Position numbers and translations under genes: made by a program. A DNA stretch of 64,000 nucleotides, from assembly GCF_026151205.1 (NCBI RefSeq), contig NC_087074.1, positions 21,185,765 through 21,249,764 of the forward strand, written 5' to 3'. Below are positions 41,620 to 63,684 of this stretch, one piece after another. The DNA is from Bolinopsis microptera. Taxonomy: Eukaryota; Ctenophora; Tentaculata; Lobata; Bolinopsidae. Below the pieces are notes generated by a model. The model did no database searches. It saw only the letters and a list, made by a program, of their open reading frames with translations, and was not told the origin of the DNA. Each line of letters opens with the position of its first letter. The stretch's first letter is position 1.

Positions 41620-42710
41620 CTATTGAAGACACTGAGGTGGAGGTCCGTTAGTCGGGACTACAACAAACTCTGACAGATTCCCTCGTGGCACCCTTGTGGA
41701 TATGGTCTGATAGACAAGTGATCTTTATCTCTATATCGAGGTCAACTGCAGTACTGGCTCAGTCTGAACGTTTCCCCATGTTGAGTCGAGAGTGGTGCAT
41801 TCTGAGATTATGATACATAAATTATCTACATTATAGTTTATACGCTAGTTTATGTCAATATAATTCTGTACTAGACTGAAGTTTTTCATGAATTTTGCCA
41901 ATAAATAAATTACATTTAAACAATATTTCCCACCGCACCGTTGTCAATGTGTACAACTTGATACATTTCACTACAGTCAACAGAACAAAAGTCAACAGAA
42001 CGATCCCAGCTCCCACTAAAATGTATTTTTCGACCTGGTCTTACTACTCCGCGACAGTAAACTGTGGAACCTGCTGTACCTCCGACTGCCAGATCCAGTC
42101 TGCATCACTTGATATTGCAGCTATTTGACCAAAGCGATTGGCACCGTGGTCAGCCTATCTTAAAAGCAATCTGCCAGTTATCTGAACTATCTTGAATCCT
42201 GGCAGCTCCCATCCTTCTTCCTCCACCGATGAGCATTTCCAGTTAGTGTCTGTCACGAAGATTGTCTCTCCTTCCTCGTTCTGTAGTGATGCTAATATAC
42301 CATAATTATTAAGACCTGGGTCACTGCCTTTCAATGCTATCACCCTCAATGCTTCTGATGTCTGGAACGCTGTCGATCGATTCCAAATTCTAAGGGTACC
42401 GTCTTGTTGTTCATGTTGAACTCCATCAAGATACACCTTCAGGACATCGTCACAAGTAGCTATCAGGGTCACTTTCCCTATTAAGTGTTATGATAATTAA
42501 TAACTAATAATATTAGTTGTAATCAAGTAACTAATCTAAACGTGCAGCTAATTTGTGAGTAAATGTTTTTGTTGTGACACCTCCTTGTATTGGATATCAC
42601 TGTTGTAAAGTAAGAACTGTTAACAACTATAATAATAATGGGTACTAACCTTTATTGGCATTGGTAGTCAGTAAGCAGAGAGTCAGTACCAGTAGAAGTA
42701 TAGATAACAT
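41620..42710 (-). pseudogene. Paralogue A: signal peptide + jelly-roll + sushi-like gene, frameshifted
   Basis: Second, damaged copy of the gene at 43,443-48,352. Exon 1 (42,650-42,710) encodes the same 20-residue signal peptide (MLSILLLVLTLCLL...) and the same GTTAGT donor. Exon 2 (42,035-42,477) begins with TLIATCDDVLKVYLDGVQ, but a T missing at the Gly-Phe-Gln position, another base missing near the last Trp-Ile-Trp and further changes break the frame. Exon 3 (41,620-41,801) is 182 bp against 186 bp in B. The exon 2 donor is a weaker GTCGAA. Either this is a decaying duplicate or the indels are sequence errors; the adjoining block is clearly unreliable. Intron 2 here lacks the transposon of copy B. 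Confidence 0.7.
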
Positions 42711-43127
42711 CACATAGTCGAACTTGTTTACATCGCTTATCTACAGCAGATAAGAATTAAATCAAAAGTCAATCAATGTTTGATGTATTATTTGCAACAA
42801 ATACTGTGAAATAGAAGCCAATAAAATCGAAGCCAATGTATAGTTAAAAACAAATCGGGTATTCAAGCAAACGTCTAAATGGTACTGTGGCTCTTGAGTT
42901 AAAACTTTCGAAGAGTAATTAATTTAATTTGAATCAATACAAACAATAAAGTTTTTGTAAAGTTGTAAAGCATTCAGTATACTCTGGGCGGAATGTATTA
43001 CAGTTATTTACTTCTGTATTATAGTACTGTGAGAAAGAAGAGATTTCTTTATATCGTGCACAGTTCGCTGTATTTTACACCTTTTTCAAGTTCATACAGG
43101 GGAAATATATAATATCTAGGTAAGGTA
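42711..43127. other. Spacer between paralogues A and B
   Basis: AT-rich sequence without a recognisable gene. The duplicated block ends at about 42,760 (after CAGATAAGAATTAAA) and the next copy begins at about 42,990-43,030. No further exon of gene B was found here, although its third exon ends in phase 1 and needs a continuation. Confidence 0.5.
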
Positions 43128-43265: not shown

Positions 43266-43442
43266 CCAGAATTGTTTTAATTTGTTCAAACGTTTAGTTT
43301 ACCGCTTATAAACTAGAATTTCTAGCCGTTTACTTGGACAGTTTTCAGTTTGTTGTATTGAATAGATTTATGATTGAATTGATTGATTGGGGAGTTCCCC
43401 AATATTAAACTCAGCACTAACGCCATAAGTTGTGTTACTTAC

Positions 43443-43628
43443 CTATTGAAGAGCACTGGGGAGGAGGTCCGTTAGTCGGGACTACAGCACCGCTCTGACA
43501 AGTTCCCTTGCTGGCACCCTTGTGGATATGGTCTGCTAGACAAGTGAACTTTATCTCTATATCGAGGTCAACTGGCAGTACTGGCTCAGTCTGAACGTTT
43601 CCCCATGTTGAGTCGAGAGTGGTGCATT
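43443..43628 (-). CDS. Paralogue B exon 3: sushi-like (CCP) domain
   Basis: Acceptor TTTCAG and donor ATAG/GTAAGT bound a 186-bp phase 1-1 exon. The translation starts ECTTLDSTWGNVQ and continues with IEIKFTCLADHIHKG, KGTCQSG and PPPQC. The four cysteines, the Trp-Gly after the first, the F-T-C and the G-T-C before a final P-P-Q-C fit a complement control protein (sushi) domain, which mediates extracellular protein binding. The exon ends in phase 1, so coding should continue, but no next exon is visible before paralogue A begins. Confidence 0.75.
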
Positions 43629-43635
43629 CTGAAAT

Positions 43636-43700
43636 TATGATACATAAATTATGTATCATAGCATTAATAGTGTTAGCTACAGCTAACACTATTAATGCTA
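43636..43700. repeat. Two back-to-back perfect palindromes
   Basis: First: 12-bp arms around one A (43,636-43,660, TATGATACATAA with TTATGTATCATA). Second: 20-bp arms around a 2-bp loop (43,659-43,678 and 43,681-43,700, arm TAGCATTAATAGTGTTAGCT). They sit immediately before the exon 3 acceptor on the minus strand. Paralogue A has only the first few bases and neither hairpin. Confidence 0.9.
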
Positions 43701-43945
43701 AGTACCAAACAAGAAGTGGGAGGTGGATCGTTGGTATACCGTTAAATCGATTTAACACCGCAATTCCAGTCGCAAGCCTGGGACCACTACTAGCATTGTC
43801 ACAACATCTACAAAGCTGCCATATAGCCTGACTGACAATTTTCTCGACTGACTGACAATGTTTCTTCTTTTCCCCATTTAGAATACAGAGATTAGTACAT
43901 TTTAGCTTATGAATAATATTATATTTTTACCTATAGTTTACCTAG
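43650..43945. mobile_element. Insertion of about 290 bp specific to paralogue B
   Basis: Comparison with A (41,801-41,850, TACATAAATTATCTACATTATACGC-like) shows that B has about 290 extra bases between ATACATAAATTAT and CATTATACGCTAG. The block starts with the paired palindromes and includes an ACTGACTGACAAT direct repeat near 43,830. It could be a small non-autonomous element or filler DNA. I see no clear target duplication. Confidence 0.5.
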
Positions 43946-44094: not shown

Positions 44095-45468
44095 TAGTAA
44101 GGGGAAAAGTGGTCGATTTAAGGGTTCCGTTGGATTTGAATGTTCACAAGGATTTCTCAACGGAATATAGTAGTTAAGACCCCTACGAACATAATTAGAC
44201 TTGTTGCCAATTTTGTATCTCAACAGAAACACCACTTTTACCACTTTTTACCACCTTTGTACCACCTGTCTGGTTTGCCAAATATCTTTAGTTGTGAACG
44301 TCGTAAAAGGCTTGCAAATTAACCTAGAATGTTTATCTTATCAAGGAGTAAAACTTTTGTGTGAAAAAATTTTACATTGGACAATCAGCTAATTGTATAA
44401 TTACCAATTAGTTAATCACCAAAAAATTTTGAAAATTTTTTAATGGCTCAAAATGATTGAAATCGTTTGAAACACGGAGAAATGTAGTTTTTAGAAAAAC
44501 TTCAAAAAATTTTCACTTAAAAATTTTTTTTCGAGACTTAGAAAAAAGGTTTGAAAATTTAAAAATATTTTTATTCCGCCAAAGTGATCGAATTGCATGA
44601 AACGTGGATAAAAATGCTTTGCAAAAAAACTTCGAAGTTTTTTGAGTTTGGGGAATACTAAAATCATCAAATATTTGAAGTTGGGTCATAAATCTCGACA
44701 TTTTTATAATTGGGAATGTTACGGAAAGGGCCGAACCTAAAAAAGGTTTAACCCACAAATTAGAGTTTCTAACAAATTACAATACAGTTTATAAAAATTC
44801 CACAAAAGAAACAGACAAAAGGCCATTTAAGATCGAACCTTTTTTTACCTCGTACTACTTTTTTTATTGATTTCAATGATCAATAACCCTGTACCGTCAA
44901 TTTTGCCAATCAACCGGGTATCGAAGTACCGGACCTTATTTTCCCTAAATTAACCCCGTTTTTGCAAAAAAATGCGATTTTCCAGGGGGATCTTTTAACT
45001 GTGCCTTTTTGTCATCTCGCAACTCGCAAGAGCCCGGGATTATAGGGGGGGAAAAAGGGAAGCAGTGTAAATTTCCTTTATCACCACTTGGCTTTTTTTA
45101 TTTTGAATGCGCATGCCGCTTCGTTTGCTATGCCAGATACCTCGAATAACCCCCATATTTCATTGCCAGGGTCGGGATAGAGCTGGAGATTCATTGAAAA
45201 GTTGCTAGAAATAGCTAGATTTAGAGTAAAACTGGTGGTAGCTGGGTGGTGCTAGCATGGATGTAGCAGAGACGTAGCTACACGGGGTTTCATTGGAGTT
45301 GGTTATTTTAATGGCCAAAGAGTGCCGGAACTAAAGTTACTTAAGATTGCAGTTGAGGGGCAGTTGTAAACCACGGTGTAGTCAGGGACACAGAGCTACA
45401 GTGCAGGAGTAGCTGCAAGTGCAACAAGAACATTGCAAGTGATACAGTATGCAACAGTAAAACGCCGA
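44095..45468 (-). repeat. Left arm of the foldback element
   Basis: Reverse complement of the right arm. About 44,500-45,060 shows stretched homopolymers compared with the right arm, so part of the difference between arms is probably sequence error. It contains the reverse of the satellite segment from CCCCTTACTA back to the TATAATACC region; the C-tract is short here. Confidence 0.85.
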
Positions 45469-45944: not shown

Positions 45945-47597
45945 GCGGCGTTTTACGTTTAGACGTATCACTTGCAGTTCTATTGCCTTGCAGTACTCCC
46001 GCCCGTAGTCTGTGTCCCTGACACCCGGGTTTCCTGCCCCTCAACGCAACTTAAGTAACTTTAGTTCCGGCACTCTTTTGGGCCCTAAAATAACCAACTC
46101 CAAGAAACCCCGTGTAGCTAGTTTTTGCTACATCCATCTAGGCACCACCCAGCTACCACCAGTTTACTCTAAATCTAGCTATTTCTAGCAACTTTTCAAT
46201 GCTATCTCCAGCTCATATCCCGACCCTGGCAATGACATATGGGGGTTATTCGAGGTATCTGGCATAGCAAACGAAGCGGCATGCGCATTCACAATACAAA
46301 AAAGCCACAGTGGGGGCACAGTGGATGATGGAAGGTATATTTAGCACTCGCTTCCTATACCCCCCTATTATATCCGGGCCTCTTGCGAGTTGCGAGAGTG
46401 ACAAAAAGTGCTACATCCATGCTAGCACCACCCAGCTACCACCAGTTTACTCTAAATCTAGCTATTTCTAGCAACTTTTCAAAGCTATTCTCCAGCTCTA
46501 TCCGACCCTGGCAATGACATATGGGGGTTATTCGAGTATCTGGCATAGCAAAACGAAGCGGCATGCGCATTCCACAATACAAAAAAAGCCACAGTGGATG
46601 ATGGAAGGTATATTTACACTCGCTTCCTATACCCCCCTATAATACCGGGCCTCTTGCGAGTTGCGAGAGTGACAAAAAGTGCACAGTTAAAAGAAACCCC
46701 TGTGAGAAATCGCATTTCTTGCACAACTGGGTCTAATTATAGAGGTAAATAAGAGGTCCGGTACATTCAGATACCCGGTATAGATTGGCAAGATTGACGG
46801 TACAGAGGTTTTGATCATTGAAATCAATAAAATGATAGTACAGCAGGTAAAATCGGTTCGATCTTAAATGGTCCTTTTGTGCTTTTCTTTATGTGGAATT
46901 TGATAAAGCTGTATTGTAATTAGTTATGAAACTCTAATATTGTGTGGTTAACCTTTTTCAGGTTCAGCCCTTTCCGCTAAGCTATTCCTAATTACTAAAA
47001 TATGTCGAGATTTACTGAACTCCAACTTCAAATATTGATGATTTTAGTATTCCCCTATCTCAAAATCTTCGAAGTTTTTCTGCAAAGCATTTATATCCAC
47101 GTTTCATGCAATTCGATCACTTTTGGCGGAAAAAAATAATTTTTAAATTTTCAAGACCTTTTTCTAAGTCTCGAAAAAAATTTTTAAGTGAAAATTTTTT
47201 GAAGTTTTTCTAAAAACTACATTCTCCGTGTTTCAAACGATTTCAATCATTTTGAGCCAATAAAAAATTTTTCACTTTTTTTGGTGATTAACTAATTGGG
47301 TAATTATCCAATTAGCTGATTTGTCCAATGTAAAAATTTTCACACAAAAGTTTTACTCCTTGATAAGATAAACATTCTAGGTTAATTTGCAGCCTTTTAC
47401 GACGTTCACAACTAAAGATATTTGGCAAACCAGACAGGTGTACAAAGGTGGTAAAAAGTGGTAAAAGTGGTGTTTCTGTTGAGATACAAAATTGGCAACA
47501 AGTCTAATTATGTTCGTAGGGGTCTTAACTACCATATTCCGTTGAGAAATCCTTGTGAACATTCAAATCCAACGGAATGCCACTTTTCCCCTTACTA
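45945..47597 (+). repeat. Right arm of the foldback element
   Basis: Cleaner than the left arm. From about 46,602 (GGTATATTTACACTCGC) to 47,597 it is the satellite-shared sequence in the same orientation as the array, with a 6-C tract where array units have 13-26. It is longer than the left arm because of the internal duplication at 46,127-46,680. Confidence 0.88.
46127..46680 (+). repeat. Tandem duplication of about 275 bp in the right arm
   Basis: 46,127-46,409 and 46,410-46,680 are near-identical. Each runs from TGCTACATCCAT through CTAGCACCACCCAGCTACC and the ATGGGGGTTATTCGAG segment to GCGAGAGTGACAAAAAG. The left arm has one copy, so the duplication arose after the inverted structure formed. 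Confidence 0.9.
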
Positions 47598-47671
47598 TCA
47601 ACAAAACAAAAGTCAACAGAACGATGCCAACTCTCACTAAAATATATTTTCTGTTAAAATATTAAAATTAC

Positions 47672-48112
47672 CTGGTCTTACTACTCCGCGACAGTAAGCT
47701 GTGGAACCTGCTGTACCTCCGACTGCCCAGATCCAGTCTGCATCACGTGATATTGAAGCTATTCGACCCCAGGGACCACCTGACTTATAAGCAATATAAG
47801 CACTCTGCCAGTTATTTGAACTATCTTGAAATCCTGGCAGCTCCCATCCTTCTTCCTCGACCGATGAGCATTTCCAGTTAGTATCTGTCACGAATATTGT
47901 CTCTCCTTCCTCGTTCTGTAGTGATGCTAATATTCCACGATTACCACCACCTGGGTCACTGCCTTTCAATGCTATCACCCTCAATGCTTCTGATGTCTGG
48001 AACGCTGTCGGTTGATCCCAGTTTTCAAGGGTACCGTCTTGTTGTTCATGTTGAACTCCATCAAGATACACTTCCAAGACATTGTCACAAGTAGCTATCA
48101 GAGTCACTTTCC
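47672..48112 (-). CDS. Paralogue B exon 2: jelly-roll, galactose-binding-like domain
   Basis: A 441-bp phase 1-1 exon with acceptor TTAATAG and donor CCAG/GTAATT. The translation begins GKVTLIATCDNVLEVYLDGV, then ALRVIALKGSDPGGGNRGIL, TNWKCS, GWELPGF, and ends DADWIW...YCRGVVRP. The start (a D-N-V-x-x-V-Y-L-D-G strand), the central V-I-A-L, W-K-C, and the closing D-A-x-W-I-W and Y-C-R are typical of a beta-sandwich module common in uncharacterised invertebrate extracellular proteins, related in pattern to galactose-binding-like folds. The ligand is unknown. The frame is intact, unlike paralogue A. The foldback transposon lies in the intron that follows. Confidence 0.75.
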
Positions 48113-48291
48113 CTATTAAGTGTTATGACTTATGATAATTAATAACTAATAATATTAGTTGTAATCAAGTAACTAATCTAAACGTGCAGCTAATTTGAGA
48201 GTAAATGTTTTTGTTGTGACACCTCCTTGTATTGGATATCACTGTTGTAAAGTAAGAACTGTTAACAACTATAATAATAATGGGTACTAAC

Positions 48292-48352
48292 CTTTATTGG
48301 CATTGGTAGTCAGTAAGCAGAGAGTCAGTACCAGTAGAAGTATAGATAACAT
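48292..48352 (-). CDS. Paralogue B exon 1: signal peptide
   Basis: ATG at 48,350-48,352 opens MLSILLLVLTLCLLTTNANK, an 11-14 residue hydrophobic core with small residues at the end, then G from a split codon. The donor is AAAG/GTTAGT; the exon is 61 bp, phase 1, which joins exon 2 in frame as NKGKVTLIATCD. An out-of-frame ATG-TGA lies 5 bp upstream. The protein is therefore predicted to be secreted or type I membrane. Confidence 0.8.
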
Positions 48353-48389
48353 CACATAGTCGAACTTGTTTACATCGCTTATCTACAGC

Positions 48390-48925
48390 AGATAAGAATT
48401 AAAATTCAAACAACTGATTGGATCAAAGCACAAAAACTTCTTCCAAACTCGATATATTGGGCCATTTTACTTCCCAGCCGATTATCTAGACCGTTAGATA
48501 TCTCCAACGAAAGATTAAAACTGAAATTCATTGCACCCCCTCAAAAACCAAAAAAAATTAACACACTGCCTTGCAGGTGGTGTGATCCAGCACTCCAAAT
48601 CCCTCTCATTCTACGACATAAACCCCTCTACAGACATCTTCTGCGCATTCCAACTAGACGGTTTTCCCCCCAGTTCTACAAGCTCCAGTTCCCTTATCTC
48701 GGCACTTCAACTTCCCGTAAAACCTTCATGACAAGCGATGAGAAGGATCGGAAGTTGCCCATACACGTGAGATGTGAGATAGTCAGCAAGTTCTGCTGGA
48801 AGATTGTGCTGTATGTGAAGTTTGTGGTGGTTAACCTTACTGTCTTACCCTCTCGTATTCTCTCAACAGAAGTAAGCCATTCATGTTTTACCATGCCTTT
48901 TGGTTATTCGGTTTATATCATTTAA
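48390..48925 (+). CDS. Unidentified long open frame, possibly an exon
   Basis: One plus-strand frame stays open for about 178 codons, from CAGCAG/ATAAGAATT to a stop near 48,925. It includes WAILLPSRLSRPLDISNERL, a KPLYRHLLRIPTRRF segment and DEKDRKLPIHVRCEIVSKFC, with a GTATGT donor at about 48,811. A competing frame (48,531-48,731) contains KSLSFYDINPSTDIFCAFQ after a TTGCAG acceptor; it faintly recalls a ubiquitin-like fold but I cannot confirm it. No family is recognised for either. It begins at the outer edge of the duplicated block. Confidence 0.35.
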
Positions 48926-49977: not shown

Positions 49978-51211
49978 TTTCAAATATCATTAGGGGAGTT
50001 TGGTTTTAAGGGGTAGGAAGTTAAAAAGAATGGCCATAAGGGTAAATTAAACAATTTTGAAACTTTTTTTTTTTTTAATGATAACAATTTTTCTTGATTG
50101 AAACGTAGGGGGGAGAATTTATCTTCATTGGTTAAGTTAAAGATGCACGAATCCCAAAAAATTACTGACGAAAAATATGAATAAAAGATCGCAAGAGGTC
50201 TTCTCCCTTTAAAGGGTGAACTATGTAGACGCTCCTTCTGGAATCAAGGATAAAAAAGTCCCGGCGCGGTATGGATACTGCAGAAATTTAGAGCACTGAT
50301 ACTCACCATTTGCTTCGCGTTTTGTCAAGTCTTTTCGTTAAAGAGTTATTTGGCCAGTGCCATGACAAGGCCATGACTTTGCCTTTCCCAATGACCATTG
50401 TCTTTTCGACAAAAACAATGATGGGTTTAAAAAACGGGGTCTAGGATGGGGGAGAAGTCTATGAAAAAGGTCATAAGAGCGCAACGTAGCTTTCCCCGTT
50501 TCTTTCTTAAAGATCCTGGTCGGCTCTCAGATCTGAGCTATGGCCCCAAAATGATGACTAGGATATGAGTTCATGTGTTGCGCGAAAGCTGCGCTGAATT
50601 GGCCTTTAACACCACCCCTACTGTCGTTACCCATCCTATGACTTTAGGGCGGACCTTTCCCCAAAGAATGGATCTGGCAAGTCGAAAAACAAGTACCGCA
50701 TGTAACATAAAGCCTTTTTCGTGCTTACACTGAACAAAATTTGTTACAGCCCCCCTCTGGCATAAGACGGGGGCTAAATCACAAAAATTAACAGGGATCG
50801 GATTGAACGGGAAAAAAAACATAAATTTGCAGAGATCGTTGGCTAAGATTATATTTCGTAAAAGAAAGGAAAAAGGTTTGGGTAAGACGGAAGTTCAACA
50901 AGCCTAAACTTCGACTATGTCGAATAGAGTACGGTCCGGCTTTAGTTCGACACGTCAGAAGTTCGTGTCGAGAGTACTGTCGAACTTAGTAGTGAATCAT
51001 TTGCCCAGGACCACTGACCATACAAATGCAATTCATAGCCATGACCCGTTATCTCTCAACAACAATGAATTTTTAAAATATTTGGGAAGCCCGGGGCCAT
51101 AGGATTGCAACAGGATCTCCAAGTTTATAATATAATGGCCACACTTTGGCACACCATTGTTTAGAGTGCCGCCAACGGAACTTTCCCAATCGTTACCCGA
51201 GTTACTTTATC

Positions 51212-51276
51212 TGAGAGCCAACCAGAATCCTCATATTAGGAAAACCTACCTCATAACGAGGATCGGTTGGCTCTCA
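51212..51276. repeat. Stem-loop TGAGAGCCAACC
   Basis: TGAGAGCCAACC (51,212-51,223) and GGTTGGCTCTCA (51,265-51,276) are perfect complements. Just inside, GAATCCTCAT and ACGAGGATC extend the stem imperfectly. It lies in the cleaner island. No tRNA features are seen. Confidence 0.7.
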
Positions 51277-52396
51277 AAAATCGCGGCAAAAGCTGTGAGC
51301 TATTGCTCCGGAAAAAAAAAAAAAACCACCACCCCCTGGGGGGCCCTCTGTGAGTACCGTTACGTGTGTCAGGCCTATATACTCACACAAGTTCTAAACA
51401 TGAGTATGGACCAGAGGGTGTAAAGATAGTGAGCCACAGGAAACACACCTCTACTATTAACTTAAACTTAACGTACAAAATAATGGTGGGACCCCCTTTT
51501 TTTTTTGCCCTGCATAAAAAAATTTCCCTCTTAAAACCCCAAAGAAAAAAAAAAAATCCCCCATTCCCCCTTTTTTTAATGTTCAGGTCTCACTTCTTTA
51601 TGAATAATTTTTACTTAGTTGAAATTATTTTTGATTTTCCTATAAGTAAATAAAACAAAATTTGGGGCCGGGGGGGGGGGTTAAACTTTTTAATATATTC
51701 CCATTTTTCCACGAACAAACCCCCTCGAAATAGTAAAAAGTCACCAAGCCTTTAAGCCAGGGACAAAAACTTTTTTTCTTGTGCGAGTAACCCCTTATAT
51801 CCCCAAGAATATCCTGTTTAAAATTAAACATTTGACTCTTTACAATTGGTCCCTAAATTTTATACTTTTGTCCCCCCCCAATTTCTAGCCCACAATCCAC
51901 CAGGGCTGGGAATCCTCAACGGGACCCCAGACAAAGACCGGGTCACTGAGGCTGCTCCAAACTCTATCACCCCTTTCTCCTGCCTGTAACGATTAGATCG
52001 GTCGGTCATTTTTTAAGATTTTTGCTTAAATTTTTAAAAAAAATTAACTATTCCTGTTTTGTGGTATAATCTTAGTTACCACAGTTACCACGTTACCACT
52101 AGTTAACTTTTTTCCCAAATAGTTACCACTTTTTACCACTCACCCCCCTCGCTACTATCAATATTTTCCTGAGTGGAAATGTGAGGGGGGGTGGTTTCTT
52201 TATAAAAAACCCACAAAGCAGTGTTGTATCTATGAGGGGGCCCGGAGGGGGGAAGATATTCCTCCAGTGCCTGGGTGTTCCGCGGAGCTCTTATCAGGTC
52301 GTTTTTCTCCGACTTCAATGATCTCCCTACCCCTTACCGGTAAGGGAAAATTTTTTAAAAAATTTTTTAAAAGGAAATTGGTTTAAAAAAGTTTTG

Positions 52397-52400
<4 letters not shown>

Positions 52401-52448
<48 letters not shown>
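52401..52448 (+). repeat. Poly-A tract
   Basis: About 48 A in a row within distorted sequence. It could be a retroposon tail or a base-calling artefact; no element body is recognisable next to it. Confidence 0.6.
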
Positions 52449-52451
<3 letters not shown>

Positions 52452-55400
52452 GGGGAAATGGGAAAAGAAAAAGGGGGTGAATTTTCCCCTTTAAAACCGG
52501 TATTTTTTTTTAAAAAATTTAAATGACGGGGGAGCCAAAGGGGGGTAAAACCCCCCCCCCCCCCCCCCCCCAAAAAAATTTCAAAATTTACCGATTTTCC
52601 CCCAAAAGGGGGGCCCCGTAGGGGGGAACCCCCCCCCCCCCGGGGAAAAAGAGAAAAAAAAGCCAAAAACCCCCACAACCCACGCCAAGGGGGCATGCTT
52701 TTAACATCAACCCGACTCCCTTAACTTTTGGGGAAGGCGGGCCCAAACCAGACCAATTAGGAAAAGGGAGCTTAATGGATGATGTGGGGGCCCCCGAGGA
52801 AAGGGGGCCAAAAAGGGGTTGGGGTTTGGGGGGGAAAAGGACAACCGAAGCGCCCCATGAAAAAACCCCAACCAAAAGAAATCTTACTAACCCCCGCAAA
52901 ACCCCCTCCTTATTCCCAACGCCCACCGGGGGGGACCTCTATGACCCCCTTTAGGGGGCCCACAGGGACAAATTACCCAGGGGGCAAAAACAAGGAACCC
53001 TTAAAAGGGGGAGACCAAACCCTTTTCCAAAACCCCCCCAAAATTAGGGGGTTAGGCTTTTAATCAACCCCCTCCGGGAAATTTTTTTTTGGGGGGGGGC
53101 GTCTTTTTACCAGCCGGGGGGCGGGCTACGGGTTTTACTCTGGAATCCAGTTAAAAGGAGGGGGGACGGTTTTTTCACCCGGTAAGAGGGTGGAAACCAA
53201 AATTTAGGTGCAGGGAGTTAACTGGGGGTTATGGGCCCGAGGTCCAGGCCTTTTTCCCCAAAACCCTCCCCCCACATCTTTCTTCAAAAAAACCAAAATT
53301 TTTTTAAAGGCTGGGGGAAAAAAAAAAACGCCCAAAAGTTGGGTCCCGAAGCGGAGAAATGGGACGAAATTTGGGGGGTACAACCCCAGTTTAAGTAAGT
53401 TATTAGAAAGGTTAATTCACACTCTAGTTTTGAGGCCCTAAGGCTCCCAAAAAGGTGGTTTTTCAACTCTGGTTTTTTTAACTCAAGTCCAACCATAAAA
53501 TTTAAGAGACTGTCTTGGGAAACCCCTAGGGGAAATACAGGGGGGGGCCCCTTGGGCAAAAAAATAGGCTTACCGAAATCAGGTTTGAACTTTACCCCAC
53601 GATTTTTACTTTTCCCAAATTTTTTTGTTTTTTAAATTCCCAAAATAATAAAAAAAAACTTTTTCCCCCCCAGGTATGGGAGGGGTTTTTAAAATCCGTG
53701 GTTAGTGGGGGATTAGGCAGGAAAGGTTCCCCCCAAAGTCGGTCCCCGTTTAAAAATTTTTAACTCCCCCATTTTTTAAGTGAGGGAAAGATGTTTAGAG
53801 CCGACAAGGGAAACTTAGACCCAGGAGGGGGACTTTTTCTTTTTTTTTTTTGGGCCTTTTTCCCTTTTCTTCCTTTTTTTTTAAACCTTTTTTCCTTTTT
53901 TTTTTTTTTTTTTAAAATTTTTTTTAAAAACATTTTAAAAGAAACCAAAATTTTTTTTTTTAAAATTCAAATGAATCGGGGGTGGAGGGGTTAAAAATGG
54001 GTAGGGGGTTCCAGCATTCCCCTTTGGGAAAACAAGCGGGGGGGGGTACCATAAAAGGTCCTTAAAAGTTCAAACAGGGGTTTTTGTTTTTCCCAGGGAC
54101 TTTCTTTTCCGGCCTCTTTTTTCCGTTTTATTTTTTTTACCCCAAATTTTTCCCCCCTTTTTTTTTTCAATTTTTTTTAAAAAACAATAAAAGGAAGAAA
54201 CAAAATTTTTTCTTCCTAAGAGTTAAAAAAAGGGCCCGATGGCAGGGGAAAATTTGGAATTTCCCAAAAACCCGCAAACCCTCTATTGTGGAAATAACCG
54301 CAAAATACGGGGAACGGCATTTGGTTTGGGGGAAAAGCCCCAAAACCGGGGGGCCGTCCGACTTTCAAAAGGAACTTTAAAAGGGTTTTTAAGGAATTTG
54401 TTAGATTTAGGGGAATCTTAACCCCAAAAAAATTTTGGGAAAAAAAGGTTACAATTTTATACCGACCCGGGGTTTTTTTTTTAAAAGGTTGACCGTCCCC
54501 TCAATGAAATCCGGAAAATCCCCGATGCAGGACAAGATTTCTTTATCTGGAAACTGCCCTTTTTTGGGGAAACTTTCTTTTGGGGAAAGGGGCCAAAAAC
54601 CGTTTGGGCGTTTTTTTTTAAAAAAAGGAAATTTAGGGTTTTAAATTTGTTTGTTAAGCATTTAAAAATGTTTCGAATAAAGGTTTCCACGAACAACCGG
54701 TTTTAATTTTTTTCAAAAAACTTTTAAACCATTTCTATTTAAAATTTTTAAAAAACTCCTGGTTTCTTCAGAATTAAATTATTTTGGGGCATCCCGTTAA
54801 AAAAATTAAGAATCTTTAAATTGCTGGCAAACCGATTTTTTAAAAAATTTTAAATTTTTTCTTAAATTGAATTTTTAAATTTAAAAAATTTTGGGTAAAT
54901 TTTTTTTTGAAAAACAACCCCCCCGTTTTTTTTGTTTGACCAAACGGAGCTTATTTAAAAGACCTTTTATCATTGGGACAAAAAGTTTAATTAAATTTTT
55001 TAAATAAATTTTGGTTTTTTTTGAATTTTTTAAATTGAAAAATTTTTTAAATTTGAGGGGGGACTATAATTTAAAAACCACCCCTTTAATTAAATTCAAT
55101 AAATTAATAATTTTTATTTTTTAATTTTTGGTAGGTTGATTTTTTAAAAACCTTTTTTCCCCTTGTTTTTGACTGAATTTTTATTTTATACCCAAAATTT
55201 TTTTATAGCTAAATTTTTAATTGTAAAAATCAAATTTTTTAAAAACCAAATTTAAATAAAATTTTAAAAAATAAATTTGAGCTTTACTTATTTAAAAATT
55301 TTTTGGTTTTTATTGTAAAGGGTTTTTATGTTTTTCTAAAAAATAAAATATTTTTTTATTTTTATTTTAGGGTGTAATAAAAAATTTTTGAAAATTAAAA

Positions 55401-56194
55401 ACGAATTATTTTCTTTTTCTTAATATAATAATTTCCAAATTTTGTCCATTTTAAAAAAAACTAAGCTTTTATCTTAAATTTTTTAAATTTTTCAATTTAT
55501 AAAAAAAATTAAATTTTTTATCATACAATGGAAATTTAAAATACGATTAAAGGCCCTTTATTAAATTTCTACAAAGTTGGGGGGTTTTTGTAAAAAAAAT
55601 ATTTTTTAAAAAAGGGGGGAAACCTTTTTAAAATTAAAGAACAGGAAAAAACCTGTTCTTCAAAACAAACCTACCTTTTTTTATCAAAAAAAAATTTTTT
55701 TCCCGGGTTTTTTTTTTGGTTTTAAAAGTTTAAGGGGAAAATTGGGCTGTTTACAGGATAAAGGGGGGCCAAGAAACGCAAAAAAAACGGTCCATTTTTC
55801 GTTTTCAGTCATAACTTCTTTTTTCCCTAACGAACCGTTTGGTTTTAAAATTTTTTACCTAAAAAGGGGAAAAGGGTTTAAGAAAAGGTCAAGGGGATTC
55901 TTTTTTTTTGGGCCTTTATCAAATTTTTAACTTTGGAAACTTAAGGGGGGGCCTGTAAAAATCAACAAGTTTTGCCCAATTTCCCGGAAAAATGGTCCTT
56001 TTTAAAGAACTTTTAGTTTTCAAGGTACTTTGCCTCTCCAACACAAAAAAGTTTCATTTCATTTAAAAACGTTTTTAAAAATTTTTTAAAAACAATTTAA
56101 TTTTTTTTTTTTGGGGGTGCTTTTCAAATTTAAAAAATTTTTCAAAAGGGGGGTTTATCGTTGTGAAAAATGTTACTTACCTTAGTAATGTCAG

Positions 56195-56425
56195 GTTGCT
56201 GGCATAATAACACCGGTAACATAGGAGACTTTAACAGAATTGGACAGAAAAACCTGATCAACAAAGACGATTGTATAAGTTGGTGTAATGAAGAGGAACT
56301 TTGTCTAGCAGTACTTATAAGCCCAGCTCATTGGACCAGGAGGCAGTGTTATAGATTAAAGTACACGGACATTGGTTCCCGGTCGGGCTGGTTTACAGCT
56401 TATAAGTCATGTTTTGGGACCAAAG
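56195..56425 (+). CDS. Modular gene, PAN/Apple-like exon
   Basis: Acceptor AATGTCAG and donor CAAAG/GTAAGA bound a 231-bp phase 1-1 exon. The translation starts GCWHNNTGNIGDF, then DDCISWCNEEELCLAVLIS, QCYRLKYTDI and FTAYKSCFG. The six cysteines, with C-x3-C-x5-C in a helix-like segment, a C-Y-x-L strand and a terminal A-Y-K-S-C, fit a PAN/Apple-type module, which binds proteins or carbohydrates outside the cell. Phase agrees with the next exon at 59,855, 3.4 kb away. A signal peptide must lie upstream in unreadable sequence. Confidence 0.65.
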
Positions 56426-57016
56426 GTAAGATTCCCAAATTGATCTGTTATTGAGTTGGTACGTGCTTGGGTTAAATTTGATATAAAACGATATCTGATT
56501 GAGATTGTTTGAATTAAGCTATAACACTCCACCAGAATGCACTAGACTGAACCCGAGCTGGTGAAAGTAACAACCAGTTATTAGCATCTTTATATTACGA
56601 ATCTTAAGTCTGAAGCTGATTAATCTGTTTGTATGCTTTTTTTTGTTGGGGACCGGCCCGAAGTACCAGCCAATGTTTACTCAAAAAATAATATATATAA
56701 TAAGTGTTATCAATTCAAACTCAAAACTCATACAAGATTAGATCTCATTAAAACGATTAAAATGTATATAATAGAGCTTGTCGAAACAAAACATAGCTGA
56801 GCACATATAAAGTTGCCTTTAGCTGAAATTATCATATTAATATGCTTTTAGAGTTGTTAGAGTGGAAACAGGCGCATAGCTACTGCTAGCTAGCAATTCC
56901 AAAATTTTTAAAATTTAACGACTGTTATCAGTCGCATAGCGTCATGCCGTTTTTGCTGGCGAATTGATGGCAGTGTAACTGAGATGGTATGCAGTGAAAT
57001 TGATTCTGTGATGGCG
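56426..57016. other. Start of the large intron, unique
   Basis: Ordinary AT-rich intron sequence, ATATATATAA near 56,690, no gene. The 3' end of the LINE probably lies within 56,880-57,020, but I could not place a tail or target duplication. Confidence 0.5.
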
Positions 57017-57019
57017 TGC

Positions 57020-57862
57020 TTATGGGACAGAGTTATTATTAGCATTACGGTTGATGTTGCGCTCTGATTTCCTTAGTCCCGTTATATTGTATAACATAAA
57101 GTTAGGCCATTCGTCTGCAATGCCCTCGTTTTGTTGATCAATGAGCATGTTTTTTATGCACCTTTTGTAGATGTTAAGGTTGAATAGACTTGGCAAGGAA
57201 GTTGCTGCGACACTATATCTGTTTATTGCTAATAGTGGACCTTTGTAGAATACTGAATTATTGTAAGGGTGTTTACCGTATTCATCTGACCATAAAGTTG
57301 TAAGACTCGAATCCGGATCGGCGACGTTAAATATTGGTGCACTGTTAGGTATTGTTTTCTTTATAGAGGGAGGCACTAGACTTGGGAAGTTTTTTAGCTT
57401 ATGTATAAAAACTAATGCGTTCTTCACGATGATACTTTGAACTGTCAATATTTTGTGTACATAGAAACCAGACTTGGTACTTGCTGGTGGTGTACCATCT
57501 TTGTACCAGTAATTAACAAAACCTGGTAGTATTGCTCTAAGACCCATTTTCTGTTTAACAAATAGTGTTTCTATATGGGATTTGGCAGCAAAACCCCAGA
57601 CGAGGGAGCAGTAATTAAGGTGAGACTGCACAAAGCTGTGATATATTTGTAAACGTGCTTCCAGAGGCAAATATTTTTTAAGTTTGTACATGACTCCAAT
57701 GTATCTGGCCATTTTCATTTTCATGGCAGAAATATGTTGCGACCAGTTCAGTTTGTTATCTATTATAACACCTAAGAAACGGGCTTCTGTTTTTCTTTCG
57801 ATTGTGACACCAGAAATTACTACATCGCGATAAATGAGGTTTCTTTGTCGAGAAAAGATCAT
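57020..57862 (-). CDS. LINE C-terminal part after the in-frame stop
   Basis: 280 codons in the same frame as the part upstream, four codons after the TAA. They hold the end of the reverse transcriptase (KTNYMIFSRQRN, LGVIIDNKLNW, YGLVWGFAAKS-type segment LNYCSLVWGF) and the C-terminal tail common to CR1-like elements (DEWPNFMLYNITGLRKSERN). It is not an independent gene. Confidence 0.85.
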   Translation of the reverse strand: MIFSRQRNLIYRDVVISGVTIERKTEARFLGVIIDNKLNWSQHISAMKMKMARYIGVMYKLKKYLPLEARLQIYHSFVQSHLNYCSLVWGFAAKSHIETLFVKQKMGLRAILPGFVNYWYKDGTPPASTKSGFYVHKILTVQSIIVKNALVFIHKLKNFPSLVPPSIKKTIPNSAPIFNVADPDSSLTTLWSDEYGKHPYNNSVFYKGPLLAINRYSVAATSLPSLFNLNIYKRCIKNMLIDQQNEGIADEWPNFMLYNITGLRKSERNINRNANNNSVP

Positions 57863-57874
57863 ATAATTCGTTTT

Positions 57875-59287
57875 TTAAAGATTTAGAGCTAATCCGTTGT
57901 TATCTACCCATTTAACTAAGACATCGCTAAGAATTTTGAGCTTATCATAAACCTCGTTTATATTTTCTCCTGTTAGGAAAATGTTTGCATCATCTGCGTA
58001 CATGATGAAATTAGCTATTTCTGATATTTGAGGAAGATCGTTTATGTAGATTATAAAAAGGAGAGGTCCCAAAATTGAACCTTGGGGTACACCGTAAATA
58101 ATTGGATTGGCTGAGGATTCAGAGGATCCAATTGATACAAACTGGTTTCTGTTCATAAGATATGATTTAAACCAGTTTAAAGCTAGACCTCTTATGCCAT
58201 AGTGCTCGAGCTTATTCAGGAGTATGGAGTGATCCACAAGGTCAAAGGCTTTGCTAAAGTCAATCAAGAGGAGCAAAGTAACTTGCTTTTTAGACATTGA
58301 ATTGAGGATTCTGTCTTTAGCATTAAGAAGTGCATGTTCACAAGACCTACCTGGGCGGAAGCCGTATTGATTTTCACAAAGTATATTGTAGGTATCCAAG
58401 AAATTTATGACTCGATTGTGCATAAGCTTTTCGTAGACTTTTGAGAAAGTGGCAAGTAGAGATATCGGTCTGTAATTTTTGATGTCAGTTTTAGATCCAC
58501 CTTTATGTACAGGAACTACTTTTGCCGTTTTCAAGGCTTGGGGAAAGACCCCTTGTTCGAACGAGCTGTTAACAACGTGGGCCAATACAGTGGTAAAATT
58601 ATGACAGCTGTTGGCAATTTTGAGTGGTTGGATTTTGGTGTCAAGAGTAGCTTTATTCTTAAATAGGTTAATAACGTCTTGAACTTCGGTAGTTGTGACT
58701 GGTTTTATGTAGATACTATTTGGAGAAGGGTTACGTAGTGTCCCCTGGGCCCCACCAGGATCGAAAGTGGTCCTACTACTAATTTCAGATTTAATTTTTG
58801 GAGCGATGTTTGAGAAGTGATCATTAAATTTTTCTGCTACTGCTGCCGGAGTGCTGACTTGTCCGTTTTCGTCCGACAGTTTTATCGATGTAGGTTTGGC
58901 TGGTTTCCTATTCAGAAGTCCGTTAATCATCTGCCACTGCTTCTTAGAATTATCTTTGTGTTGTTCAAAGAATTTTTTGTAGTGTATGTTTTTGGCTTTG
59001 TCAACGTGTTTGGTGCAAAACTTTTTCAAACGGTCATATTTTAGCTGGTTCCTATCAACTGGTTCCTTAACAAAATCATGATATGCCTGATTTTTACGTT
59101 CTATAGCTTCTTCAAGCCAGGGCAGTATCCATGGTTTGGGATTAACACGTTCATTTTGTCTGCGCTCGGACTGTCTTTTTTTCGGGTAGGCAGCGTTATA
59201 AATCCTGTTGTAAGCCGAATTTAAACAATCAAACTGCTGGTTAGCATCAGGGGTATTTGTTAGTATTACAGACCAATTTTCTTCCAT
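57875..59287 (-). CDS. LINE reverse transcriptase, fingers and palm
   Basis: 470 residues from MEENWSVIL to the premature TAA. Residues 1-170 are the linker between endonuclease and reverse transcriptase; about 220-470 are the polymerase with D at IDFSKAFD and DD at YADD. The frame continues upstream without a stop to 59,395, so the ATG is only the first Met in a truncated copy, not the natural start. Confidence 0.9.
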   Translation of the reverse strand: MEENWSVILTNTPDANQQFDCLNSAYNRIYNAAYPKKRQSERRQNERVNPKPWILPWLEEAIERKNQAYHDFVKEPVDRNQLKYDRLKKFCTKHVDKAKNIHYKKFFEQHKDNSKKQWQMINGLLNRKPAKPTSIKLSDENGQVSTPAAVAEKFNDHFSNIAPKIKSEISSRTTFDPGGAQGTLRNPSPNSIYIKPVTTTEVQDVINLFKNKATLDTKIQPLKIANSCHNFTTVLAHVVNSSFEQGVFPQALKTAKVVPVHKGGSKTDIKNYRPISLLATFSKVYEKLMHNRVINFLDTYNILCENQYGFRPGRSCEHALLNAKDRILNSMSKKQVTLLLLIDFSKAFDLVDHSILLNKLEHYGIRGLALNWFKSYLMNRNQFVSIGSSESSANPIIYGVPQGSILGPLLFIIYINDLPQISEIANFIMYADDANIFLTGENINEVYDKLKILSDVLVKWVDNNGLALNL

Positions 59288-59380
59288 TATTAAATCTCTA
59301 AATTTATGGTTGTTGGCCTCATTAAAACTACGTACGTTGGTTTGTGTTGGATTTTGATTATAAGATGCGGAAGAGAAGAT

Positions 59381-59416: not shown

Positions 59417-59594
59417 ACAAATTGATTGTATAAATATAATGGGCATAATTGAATTCTTGTCAAGGGAGTCTTCAGCTTCACTGTCGTGTTTTTATACCGT
59501 AAATCAAAATATAGGACCACCTTGTATTACATTGATTGACGGAGGAGTGCTATCACAAAATTCACACTGAAGAGATACATTTCTCTCAGTTCAC

Positions 59595-59790
59595 GTGACG
59601 TCACTTAATACCAGACGTGACGTCACTTAATACCAGACGTGACGTCACTTAATACCAGACGTGACGTCACTTAATACCAGACGTGACGTCACTTAATACC
59701 AGACGTGACGTCACTTAATACCAGACGTGACGTCACTTAATACCAGACGTGACGTCACTTAATACCAGACGTGACGTCACTTATTAATAC
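59595..59790. repeat. 9 x 22-bp minisatellite of CRE palindromes
   Basis: The unit GTGACGTCACTTAATACCAGAC repeats with TGACGTCA starting at 59,596, 59,618, 59,640, 59,662, 59,684, 59,706, 59,728, 59,750 and 59,772. Every copy of the octamer is perfect. TGACGTCA is the consensus site for CREB/ATF bZIP proteins, and 22 bp places sites about two helical turns apart. The array ends about 75 bp before the exon at 59,855, in the intron of the modular gene. It may be an enhancer, an alternative promoter, or just a minisatellite. Confidence 0.95.
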
Positions 59791-59854
59791 CACACAGGTT
59801 GGTTACCAGTGCAACCTGATGACGATGCGTACATAGAATAGGACCTGGCTTCAG

Positions 59855-60232
59855 TACCTTTACAAGTTAAAACCAACAGCGAGTTGCAGAGTCTAGATAA
59901 CCTGACAGTGTCCTTCTACTCTGCTTGGAAGTACAATGCAGGAAAAGTATGGATCAACTTCGGCGAAACTCTAAAATACAAACTCGACTGGTGCAAGCCT
60001 TCCTGGTCTAACTTCTCCATAACACCTCCCAGTGATGCAGACAAGATATGGCGTATCACCCTCACCAAAAGTGCAGATATCAGGCTTGTGATACACTGTA
60101 ACGAGGTGGAGGTGCTCAACACTCTGCTCTCAGACACAACGTGTGATTGGCGTAGATGGAGAAACATCTGGGGTAAAAATGTGACAAAAATAAGCTTCTC
60201 CTCCGACACTGCGTCAGATTACTATGGACCAA
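59855..60232 (+). CDS. Modular gene, exon with unnamed CN-V domain
   Basis: Acceptor CTGGCTTCAG and donor CCAA/GTAAAT give a 378-bp phase 1-1 exon. The translation includes LTVSFYSAWKYNAGKVWINF, CKPSWSNFSI, IRLVIHCNEVEVLN, CDWRRW, and KISFSSDTASDYYGP at the end. I recall the pattern I-x-C-N-x-V-x-V-L followed by I-x-F-S-x-D-x-A-S-x-Y-Y from unnamed domains of cnidarian and other invertebrate extracellular proteins, but I know no name or ligand for it. Predicted mostly beta. The two N-F-S / N-V-T and N-L-T motifs are possible glycosylation sites. Confidence 0.7.
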
Positions 60233-60535: not shown

Positions 60536-60643
60536 TAATAATTGCAGTTACCTTGTTATCTTCTAATTTTAGGTGGACGGTAAATCCATAATTTTCATCA
60601 ATAATGCGAATAAAAAATCATTTGACATTACATCACTATGTAG

Positions 60644-61960
60644 ATAGTTGCAGTGGACTAAAGGCTGAGTGGACGAGGACGATCGAAACGACAAGACAGT
60701 TCCCAATACTGTCAGGAACCGTGGTGGAAGTGACATGCTCGTACTCTGGAGCTCTCAACAAAGGGAGCAGTGAAGTTACATGCTCGTACTCTGGAGCTCT
60801 CAACAAAGGGAGCAGTGAAGTTACATGCTCGTACTCTGGAGCTCTCAACAAAGGGAGCAGTGAAGTGACATGCTCGTACTCTGGAGCTCTCAACAAAGGG
60901 AGCAGTGAAGTTACATGCTCGTACTCTGGAGCTCTCAACAAAGGGAGCAGTGAAGTTACATGCTCGTACTCTGGAGCTCTCAACAAAGGGAGCAGTGAAG
61001 TGACATGCTCGTACTCTGGAGCTCTCAACAAAGGGAGCAGTGAAGTGACATGCTCATACTCTGGAGCTCTCAACAAAGGGAGCAGTGAAGTTACATGCTC
61101 GTACTCTGGAGCTCTCAACAAAGGGAGCAGTGAAGTTACATGCTCGTACTCTGGAACTCTCAACAAAGGGAGCAGTGAAGTTACATGCTCGTACTCTGGA
61201 ACTCTCAACAAAGGGAGCAGTGAAGTTACATGCTCGTACTCTGGAGCTCTCAACAAAGGGAGCAGTGAAGTGACATGCTCGTACTCTGGAACTCTCAACA
61301 AAGGGAGCAGTGAAGTTACATGCTCGTACTCTGGAGCTTTCAACAAAGGGAGCAGTGAAGTGACATGCTCGTACTCTGGAGCTCTCAACAAAGGGAGCAG
61401 TGAAGTGACATGCTCGTACTCTGGAGCTCTCAACAAAGGGAGCAGTGAAGTGACATGCTCGTACTCTGAAGCTCTCAACAAAGGGAGCAGTGAAGTGACA
61501 TGCTCGTACTCTGGAGCTCTCAACAAAGGGAGCAGTGAAGTGACATGCTCGTACTCTGGAGCTCTCAACAAAGGGAGCAGTGAAGTTACATGCTCGTACT
61601 CTGGAGCTCTCAACAAAGGGAGCAGTGAAGTTACATGCTCGTACTCTGGAGCTCTCAACAAAGGGAGCAGTGAAGTTACATGCTCGTACTCTGGAGCTCT
61701 CAACAAAGGGAGCAGTGAAGTTACATGCTCGTACTCTGGAGCTCTCAACAAAGGGAGCAGTGAAGTTACATGCTCGTACTCTGGAGCTCTCAACAAAGGG
61801 AGCAGTGAAGTTACATGCTCGTACTCTGGAGCTCTCAACAAAGGGAGCAGTGAAGTGACATGCTCGTACTCTGGAGCTCTCAACAAAGGGAGCAGTGAAG
61901 TGACATGCACGTCTGGAGACGCTTTTACTCATCTAGCGGAGCCTAGTTGTCCAAAACCAG
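60644..61960 (+). CDS. Modular gene, sushi-like exon expanded by 26 x 15-residue repeats
   Basis: The acceptor CACTATGTAG is chosen because it is the only one that joins the previous phase-1 exon in this frame (AAT-AGT-TGC); the donor is CCAG/GTTAGT. 1,317 bp, phase 1-1. The ends form a sushi-like domain: CSGLKAEWTRT, PILSGTVVEVTC at the front, TSGDAFTHLAEPSCPKPG at the back, matching the sushi exon of paralogue B. Between them the segment CSYSGALNKGSSEVT is repeated 26 times (60,736-61,905). One unit would give a normal domain of about 65 residues; here it is about 439. Each unit adds one cysteine and a Ser/Thr-rich stretch. The N-terminal frame upstream of 60,644 (ATG at 60,604) is intron. 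Confidence 0.8.
60736..61905 (+). repeat. 26 tandem 45-bp coding repeats
   Basis: Unit TGCTCGTACTCTGGAGCTCT then CAACAAAGGGAGCAGTGAAGTTACA, (61,906 - 60,736)/45 = 26 exactly, no length variation. Common differences are GTT/GTG (Val, silent); rarer ones are GCT/ACT (Ala/Thr), CTC/TTC (Leu/Phe), GGA/GAA (Gly/Glu) and CGT-type TCG/TCA (silent). In another forward frame the GTG form creates TGA, so only the called plus frame is open throughout. The long minus-strand frame is a by-product of a 45-bp unit without stops. Confidence 0.97.
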
Positions 61961-62020
61961 GTTAGTTGTCCAAAACCAGGTTAGTTGTCCAAAACCAAGT
62001 TAGTTGTCCAAAACCAGGTT
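61942..62020 (+). repeat. 4 x 19-bp repeat that copies the splice donor
   Basis: TAGTTGTCCAAAACCAGGT recurs at 61,944, 61,963, 61,982 and 62,001. The first unit ends the sushi exon, and each unit re-creates a donor: CCAG/GTTAGT at 61,961, CCAG/GTTAGT at 61,980, CCAA/GTTAGT at 61,999 and CCAG/GTTACA at 62,018. Use of any but the first would carry an in-frame TAG at 61,963-61,965 into the mRNA. Confidence 0.92.
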
Positions 62021-62242
62021 ACAAGTTTTAGTATGATACCTATGCTTGAGGTTAATACGATGCAACAACTTAAACTCGTATATTGAATTTTTGAAGCAAA
62101 CCCAAAATTGGGTAGATTCAAGAGTGGACCCGGGACCGTCGCAGATGTCCCCTTTTTTTACTCATTTCTACTTTTAGAGTGCAAATATGAAATTTTAAAA
62201 AGGAGCCAAATATTTTTAGCATTCTGATTATCTAATTTTCAG

Positions 62243-62475
62243 GTGGTCTGGGACAAGGCTGTGCTTCTGAAACCTATCGAACGCAGTACGGAACATTCAG
62301 CCACGGCTGGCTGGGGCTCGGTAAAAGCTCACAGTACAAGAAATGTCAGTTTGATGACTTCACGGCGGTTTTCACTTGCAAGATGAAAAGGAACAAGGAG
62401 TTATATGTGGAGAGGACTTACTATTGCAAGAACACTAAAAATACGATAGGAATAGAACAACTAGCCAACGATAAG
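62243..62475 (+). CDS. Modular gene, small Cys-rich exon
   Basis: Acceptor TCTAATTTTCAG is strong. The 233-bp exon enters in phase 1 and leaves in phase 0. The translation begins GGLGQGCASETYRTQYG, then SHGWLGLGKSSQYKKCQFDD, FTAVFTCKMKRNKEL and TYYCKNTKN. Four cysteines and an aromatic-rich pattern suggest a further extracellular fold; I do not recognise it. The donor AAG/GTTATT is weak but gives the right phase for the next exon. Confidence 0.65.
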
Positions 62476-62616: not shown

Positions 62617-62855
62617 ACTGCCTCGAATGAAGATAAGACGGCACAGATGGAGAAGATGACAAATAATGAGGGTATGAACGGTATCGGTGACGTAGAGGCG
62701 GTGTCTAATGTTCTAAAATCCATCGTCAAAAGCGGGGAAATCTCCGAGGCAGTGGCCCAGAGCGTCCTAAACACCGTGTCTAAACTTGTGAAGTCCGACT
62801 TTAAAACAGCTGATAACGACACTGAAACCCAGTTCGCCAGCAAGATCTGTGACGG
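62617..62855 (+). CDS. Modular gene, helical exon
   Basis: Acceptor TTCTCCTCAG; start phase 0; donor GACGG/GTACAT, phase 2. The translation reads TASNEDKTAQMEKM, then VEAVSNVLKSIVKSGEISEA, VAQSVLNTVSKLVKSDFK and ASKICDG. Regular hydrophobic spacing predicts several helices. The pattern recalls the helical half of the GAIN domain that precedes the membrane part of adhesion GPCRs, but no cleavage site or membrane segments follow, so this is only a resemblance. Confidence 0.65.
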
Positions 62856-63013: not shown

Positions 63014-63248
63014 TTTGGTGACTCAGACTGTTAACGTTGTTAAGCAAACTGTTGTCAAGAACAAGATTATCAAGTCTCCTCGCATAGCTGTGATCGATGT
63101 TAAGAAAGATGCAGATGCTGGTGAACCCAGCAGTAATGGAGTTGTCGCCCTCACCCTTTCTAAGGCAAGTCGAGGTGGCAAGGACCTTCAAGGTTGCGAA
63201 GTAGACTCTGGATCCGGCGATGACGAAGAGGAAAACACGATTCTATTG
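63014..63248 (+). CDS. Modular gene, exon with Asp/Glu-rich end
   Basis: The acceptor ACCGATCAG (ending 63,013) is preferred over the closer GACTCAG because it restores the phase left by the previous exon (G-GT). The translation reads LVTQTVNVVKQTVVKNK, RIAVIDVKKDADAGEP, VVALTLSKASRGGKDL and ends DSGSGDDEEENTILL. The donor is TTG/GTCAGA, phase 0, not ideal. A beta-type V-V-A-L-T-L segment follows the helices. The acidic tail may bind cations or form a flexible linker. Confidence 0.6.
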
Positions 63249-63381: not shown

Positions 63382-63684
63382 ATCGAGACAAAGTCGGGAG
63401 AAAAGAACGTAGATGTGGACATGGCCGTGGTCCTCATCACAGACTCGACACTTATGCCCGACAGGACGACTTCAATCTTGACAAAAGAGGAAGACGAAGA
63501 CGACAAGGAAGCCGTCACTAAAATCATGGATGACCTGAAGAATGATTTGGAGGACGCAACCAAGAAAGATGGCGAGGACACCAAAAAGAGCTTTGTTAAC
63601 TCATTCATCACTGAGGTCAAAGTTCAAAACGCAGTACCTGATGACTTCAAGCTAAATGTCTTCATGAAGCCCACCATTAATATA
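63382..63684 (+). CDS. Modular gene, charged exon
   Basis: Acceptor AATTTATTCAG and donor ATA/GTGAGT are both good; 303 bp, phase 0-0, 101 residues. The translation begins IETKSGEKNVDVDMAVVLIT and continues with KEEDEDDKEAVTKIMDD, a Lys/Asp/Glu-rich helix, then SFVNSFITEVKVQNAVPDDF. The pattern strand - charged helix - strand gives no known domain by eye. No membrane segment. Confidence 0.65.

Follow-up and report, generated by a model that had tools for sequence, protein, structure and literature searches.

An in-frame 45-bp minisatellite within a CCP/sushi-like domain of an adhesion-GPCR-like gene family in the ctenophore Bolinopsis microptera

In the ctenophore Bolinopsis microptera, a 45-bp unit that is repeated in tandem and in frame corresponds to the segment joining cysteines 2 and 3 in a CCP/sushi-like domain, and the exon carrying the repeats is, as its genomic context reads, exon 4 of an adhesion-GPCR-like gene. 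The first array lies in the window, by which we mean the whole 64,000-nucleotide stretch analyzed (contig NC_087074.1, 21,185,765-21,249,764, forward strand), and a second one occupies a paralogue on C11, where two near-identical genes differ in length by 35 versus 1 unit. We consider it rather probable that, in exon 4 of this family, these arrays represent an intragenic minisatellite (VNTR), one that would have been seeded within the domain itself, would be translated and would lengthen the receptor ectodomain.

TRF delimits the window array at 60727-61912 (period 45, 26.4 copies, 98% matches, no indels), within an open stretch spanning 60592-61965, and a unit-by-unit reading resolves 26 full units, followed by a partial 27th unit that closes the array. 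The elements of this region are as follows:

60727-61896, plus strand: 26 tandem 45-bp units coding EVTCSYSGALNKGSS (TRF and unit-by-unit reading)
61897-61960, plus strand: remainder of the CCP, running from EVTC (cysteine 3) through cysteine 4 (61948-61950) to the end of the exon
61944-62021, plus strand: 19-bp minisatellite, 4.1 copies, across the exon-4 donor splice site, also found in both C11 genes

The preliminary description had given 60736-61905, i.e., the same array (60727-61896) in a different phase, and had read it as 26 exact units with one cysteine each; the number of full units and the cysteine in every unit were borne out by the unit-by-unit reading, whereas "exact" is slightly too strong. 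Valine is encoded by GTT in 15 of the 26 units and by GTG in 11, and 20 units show no change outside this codon. The remaining six carry one further change each, a silent one (TCG to TCA) in one unit and replacements in five (A to T in three, L to F in one, G to E in one), so that the silent character attributed to most of the variation holds for GTT/GTG but rests on that single codon. The order of the valine codons shows no clustering in either array (runs test, p 0.18 and 0.51). With 14, 30 and 0 stops in the three plus frames of exon 4, the called frame is indeed the sole fully open one on this strand. The minus frames hold 43, 4 and 1 stops, and one of them is open over the entire array (430 aa), as expected from a unit divisible by three. 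Since the 19-bp repeat spans the donor, exon 4 is followed by several tandem donor copies; use of a later copy would lead to an immediate stop.

The identity of the domain was established on its one-unit form, whose cysteine spacing is 28-14-13. A protein search with the one-unit exon, in which one residue had been misread, scored 150 of 486 candidates and returned at least 156 genome matches. Forty exons of about 200 bp each were fetched from one-piece matches, a sample that for this reason could not have shown an array. In 39 of these 40 paralogous exons, 13 (n=3) or 14 (n=36) residues separate cysteines 2 and 3, in agreement with the earlier expectation of a single unit, and 12-15 residues separate cysteines 3 and 4; the remaining exon, L047, gave no four-cysteine match. 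The Pfam Sushi family (PF00084) was detected in 3 of the 39 aligned members (best E 1.4e-7), and the one-unit domain itself had no match to it. A profile of the family matches factor H at 6e-9, although no stretch passes on its own, and factor XIII B at 8.1e-7, where one stretch does. AlphaFold2 (AF2) predicts the one-unit form with a pLDDT of 91.6, and the best 50 of the 156 Foldseek matches of this model are all complement-related chains (probability up to 0.99, best E only 0.085). Spacing, predicted fold and structural matches therefore agree with the domain being CCP-like, as first proposed. Other candidates were discarded: M60-like_N and BTB_KLHL33, which exceed Pfam cut-offs on the raw array exon, are composition-driven, with no stretch passing alone, and p53 chains, the sole phmmer matches for the single domain, reach a best E of 0.7.

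The gene around the array was modeled with 14 exons, whose splice sites were placed by comparison with the two C11 copies and whose phases are consistent. The exons located in the window are:

56195-56425, plus strand: exon 2, cysteine-rich, family unknown; open, with splice sites and phase matching the C11 copies, 6 bp shorter
59798-60232, plus strand: exon 3, with one premature stop
60644-61960, plus strand: exon 4, the CCP/sushi-like domain with the expanded array
62243-62475, plus strand: exon 5, cysteine-rich
62617-62855, plus strand: exon 6
63014-63248, plus strand: exon 7
63382-63684, plus strand: exon 8; exons 9-14 (GPS-like motif and seven-helix region) follow beyond the window from C3:21249766, with domain matches taken from the one-unit C11 model

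Translation of 10 kb from near the window end (L009) places GPS-like and seven-helix exons just past it. Exons 5-8 lie where a GAIN domain would be found, exon 9 carries CLCSHNTSFAVLM, which we take to be the H-x-T cleavage motif and tethered agonist of a GPS, and exons 10-14 provide the seven-helix region and tail. Exon 1 of the C11 models reads MKLVIVFIAYLLHSATQS, judged by eye to be a signal peptide. On the one-unit C11 model, 7tm_2 is matched at E 2.5e-37 (128.9 bits versus a cut-off of 20.6), and GPS (PF01825) at E 8.6e-4 with 20.2 bits, below the Pfam cut-off of 22.5. The PDB matches of exons 9-14 (51 sequences) are adhesion and secretin-family receptors, with ADGRG6 first (E 2.9e-31). 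Pfam shows no GAIN match in the same model at E up to 1, PDB matches for this domain are at chance level (best E 0.74), and one window exon ORF matches GPR128 GAIN subdomain A at E 0.25. Likewise, exons 2-3 match nothing, the one-unit C11 counterpart of exon 2 having no Pfam or PDB match. The association of the two domain types is recurrent, as at least eight places have a sushi exon and a 7tm_2 match no more than about 5 kb apart (48 7tm_2 matches; lists compared by eye). The preliminary description was thus right in recognizing an expanded CCP-like domain, but it missed the adhesion-GPCR-like gene, the upstream stop and the second array.

This second array, at C11:17.33 Mb, comprises 35 units that are invariant except for the valine codon (GTT in 21, GTA in 9 and GTG in 5). 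The corresponding gene model, C11a, has no stop within its 14 exons, which are bordered by GT/AG splice sites, and encodes 1595 aa, whereas its sister C11b, located 46-48 kb away, encodes 1085 aa with 1 unit. Block by block, the regions around C11a (17324230-17340839) and C11b (17372235-17388026) are 99.1-99.6% identical, from which it follows that the unit number jumped between 1 and 35. The ectodomain preceding the cleavage motif amounts to some 690 residues in C11b and 1200 in C11a. Across the paralogues compared, unit numbers are 26 (window), 35 (C11a), 1 and 1. The length polymorphism that the preliminary description had expected between individuals is thus seen here between near-identical paralogues, with 35 versus 1 unit. 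A genome-wide search with the array junction as pattern, which is blind to diverged arrays, found at 0-1 mismatch 25 junctions in the window array, 34 in the C11 array and none elsewhere; at 2 mismatches it added just both array ends and four one-unit copies. Outside the extra units, dN/dS is 0.32 between the window copy and C11b (23 synonymous and 26 replacement changes), 0.27 between the window copy and C11a, and 0.21 between C11a and C11b, the last on just 7 and 5 changes. The value of 0.32, a pairwise sequence estimate, shows constraint still visible in the gene family.

Homologous blocks flanking the C11 core are 90-93% identical, apart from a block of 628 columns at 78%, and no N runs surround the C11 loci; these two observations disfavor the interpretation of C11a and C11b as alleles of a single gene that were assembled as a false duplication. 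The segmental duplication as a whole (C11:17324230-17346194 and 17372235-17396316), with its 99% core and its 90-93% flanks, looks as it would after gene conversion, and it also holds a VPS13-like gene (named by eye).

How the arrays may have arisen is suggested by the one-unit exon. Near-identical 12-mers, GAAGTnACATGC, encode the strands around cysteines 2 and 3; they are alike at 11 of 12 bases (sister copy). GAAGTTACATGC and GAAGTAACATGC, belonging to cysteines 2 and 3, respectively, lie exactly 45 bp apart, which is the unit length. Runs of exact identity at the 45-bp shift reach 6 bases at most, a length equalled at three other shifts and exceeded at two (7 bases); the seed argument is therefore carried by the one-mismatch 12-mer. 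In the proposed mechanism, this near-repeat coding EVTC at both cysteines would seed the array, the pseudo-symmetry of the CCP would set the 45-bp register, and misaligned exchange or slippage between the 12-mers would add or remove 15-residue units while keeping the frame. Contraction, conversely, would leave a perfect one-unit exon behind. In this reading the array would be translated; in C11a it would add 510 residues to the extracellular part before the GPS and the seven helices, and the longer ectodomain could alter how far the receptor reaches, how stiff it is and how force is coupled to the tethered agonist.

Whether both arrays derive from one event can be addressed from their surroundings. 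Close to the array, the flanks of C11a are nearest to those of the one-unit copies, since divergence among the C11 copies, including L004 (read in part), is 0.1% downstream and 0.4-0.5% upstream, against about 3% between them and the window copy. Additionally, the GTA valine codon occurs in 9 of the 35 C11a units and at cysteine 3 of C11b, and in none of the window units. On these sequence comparisons, separate expansion or repeated contraction would be favored.

The state of the window copy bears on the strongest competing explanation, and three further features near the array are needed to describe it:

56638-59378 (ends approximate), minus strand: insertion with reverse-transcriptase frames in intron 2 (RVT_1, E 1.5e-33)
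59593-59783, plus strand: intronic minisatellite adjoining exon 3, 22-bp unit, 8.7 identical copies
59839-59841, plus strand: premature stop TAG in exon 3, upstream of the array

The TAG stands where five other close copies (C11a, C11b, L004, L007 and L008) have a Trp codon; exons 2-14 of the window gene are otherwise open, and exon 1 has no match within the window. Because of the stop and the missing exon 1, the window copy is probably a recent, decaying pseudogene, though the TAG could be an assembly error. The homology of the window gene to C11 stops at 56142, and segments at 51061-52345 show homology, at 77-87%, to the far upstream C11 side. Between them, 52001-56000 is probably poor sequence: more than 30% of its bases lie in homopolymer runs of at least 5 in both 2-kb bins, as compared with 10% or less in 24 of the 32 window bins. 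The insertion, presumably of non-LTR type, is bounded at 56637-56641 and 59379 by comparison with L004, L007 and L008, at 56637 and 59379 with C11a, and at 56633 and 59499 with L005. Each copy of the 22-bp satellite holds the palindrome TGACGTCA, and the satellite is also present in L002 and L004. Deletion or frameshifts disrupt exons 3-4 of L007 (C3:18906820) and L008 (C3:14577603); in both, the end of exon 3 is joined to mid exon 4 by a deletion, out of frame.

The remainder of the window, whose start lies less than 100 kb from the end of C3, is also rich in repeats. Positions 1-33690 are a satellite with a unit of about 1.83 kb, some 18 copies and about 83-85% identity, and related pieces occur at 44125-45051 and 46632-47598. 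Two copies that are 92% alike (42033-42761 and 47670-48403) have a minus-strand open frame that looks extracellular, with no Pfam match in the one scanned. Another minus frame (43435-43923) shows a weak sushi-like match (E 0.044). In the genome at large, 18 innexin matches, all above the cut-off, argue against a sponge origin, since sponges are not known to have innexins, and a search for COX1 gave no match.

It comes close to an even chance that the arrays are neutral mutational noise, i.e., products of a duplication-prone locus that reside in dead or soon-dead copies and serve no function. Since this explanation disputes the functional part of our favored reading alone, the odds given to the two are not exclusive. 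The stop and the exon 1 not found in the window copy speak for it, as do the frameshifts of L007 and L008 and the occurrence of minisatellites of 22, 23 and 19 bp within 2.5 kb, which suggests that the locus is prone to tandem duplication. In line with this, replacements account for five of the six window units changed outside the valine codon, or three of the four distinct changes, close to the share of replacing changes among all those possible (104 of 135). C11a argues in the opposite direction, as all its 14 exons are open and flanked by GT/AG splice sites, and no replacement occurs in its 35 units, although a very young array fits this last observation equally well.

An unlikely explanation is that the array is a selected structural element, be it a cysteine-rich rod or beta-solenoid or else half-CCPs in a chain, and that it holds the N-terminal domains well away from the membrane or cross-links these domains. 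The 14 residues between successive cysteines of the array equal those between cysteines 2 and 3 and come close to the 12-15 between cysteines 3 and 4 of CCPs, and AF2 models the window array as a beta-solenoid, one of the forms suggested in the preliminary description, with one strand per 15 residues. The five models have mean pLDDT values of 62.6-72.9, with less than 50 at residues 1-24 and 424-438, and the best of them (72.9) has a pTM of 0.70. They were computed from a two-row alignment (A3), the 14-sequence alignment (A2) being left unused because it misplaced the ends of the one-unit domain onto the second unit. The best Foldseek match of the array model is antigen 43 (E 1.7e-4), with a TM of only 0.11. 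AF2 is reported to give solenoids for more than 40% of random perfect repeats (PMC11795689), and for this reason the array model was given no weight for or against a solenoid. Furthermore, the near-identical C11b and L004 do without the array, and exon 4 of the window has an odd number of cysteines, 29 (38 in C11a, 4 in the one-unit domain).

That long-read assembly or polishing made the unit numbers is very improbable, since the two loci lie on two chromosomes with distinct variants (GTA in C11a only, replacements in the window only) and no N runs surround the C11 loci, even though wtdbg was used for the B. microptera assembly, with pilon named in the same paragraph (PMC10232365), and 52-56 kb of the window looks poor.

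Returning to the minisatellite with a lengthened ectodomain, an effect on force sensing is plausible by analogy, through either lower force coupling or extended reach, because lengthening the N-terminal fragment of the Drosophila latrophilin dCIRL was described as gradually reducing its mechanosensory response (PMC5548486). A bolder proposal, which we regard as a long shot, is a length dial on a mechanosensitive receptor, in which the unit number, across the C11 receptors and across individuals, would set the tether length and with it how much force is required before the tethered agonist is exposed, and unequal exchange between the tandem sisters would renew the lengths (1 and 35) with hardly any sequence divergence. 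Domain growth may here be caught in the act, with a sub-domain segment multiplying where receptor tether length matters, and the near-identical sisters with 1 and 35 units constitute a natural experiment on ectodomain length.

Among the titles and abstract beginnings searched in the open literature, no report of such an array was found, and neither the Amphimedon GPCR paper (PMC4302439) nor a 2025 survey covering B. microptera and Mnemiopsis leidyi (PMC12716839) uses the word "sushi" in its text. In M. leidyi, receptors whose domains include sushi and GPS have been reported (PMC11797021), thus providing CCPs in putative receptors of the same phylum; these differ from the array gene in being described with C-type lectin or SRCR proteins, and the available part of that article mentions no unit array (PMC11797021). 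Similar to the C11 genes, dCIRL is an adhesion GPCR whose ectodomain length changes, but its spacers are engineered, as opposed to the natural array here. In CD97/ADGRE5, the number of EGF domains varies by splicing. Its 3 to 5 EGF domains (PMC8191316) resemble the array in that ectodomain modules vary in number before the GPS and the seven helices. There, however, whole EGF domains vary, whereas here part of one CCP does so, in the DNA and from 1 to 35 copies. Proteins of the factor H type repeat whole CCPs; the one-unit domain matches such complement proteins by profile and predicted fold, but in the array only the segment between cysteines 2 and 3 is repeated. Finally, the repeats of mucins are coding minisatellites with units rich in Ser, Thr and Pro. 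Like the array, they consist of in-frame, near-identical units of unstable number, but here each unit adds a cysteine to a folded domain.
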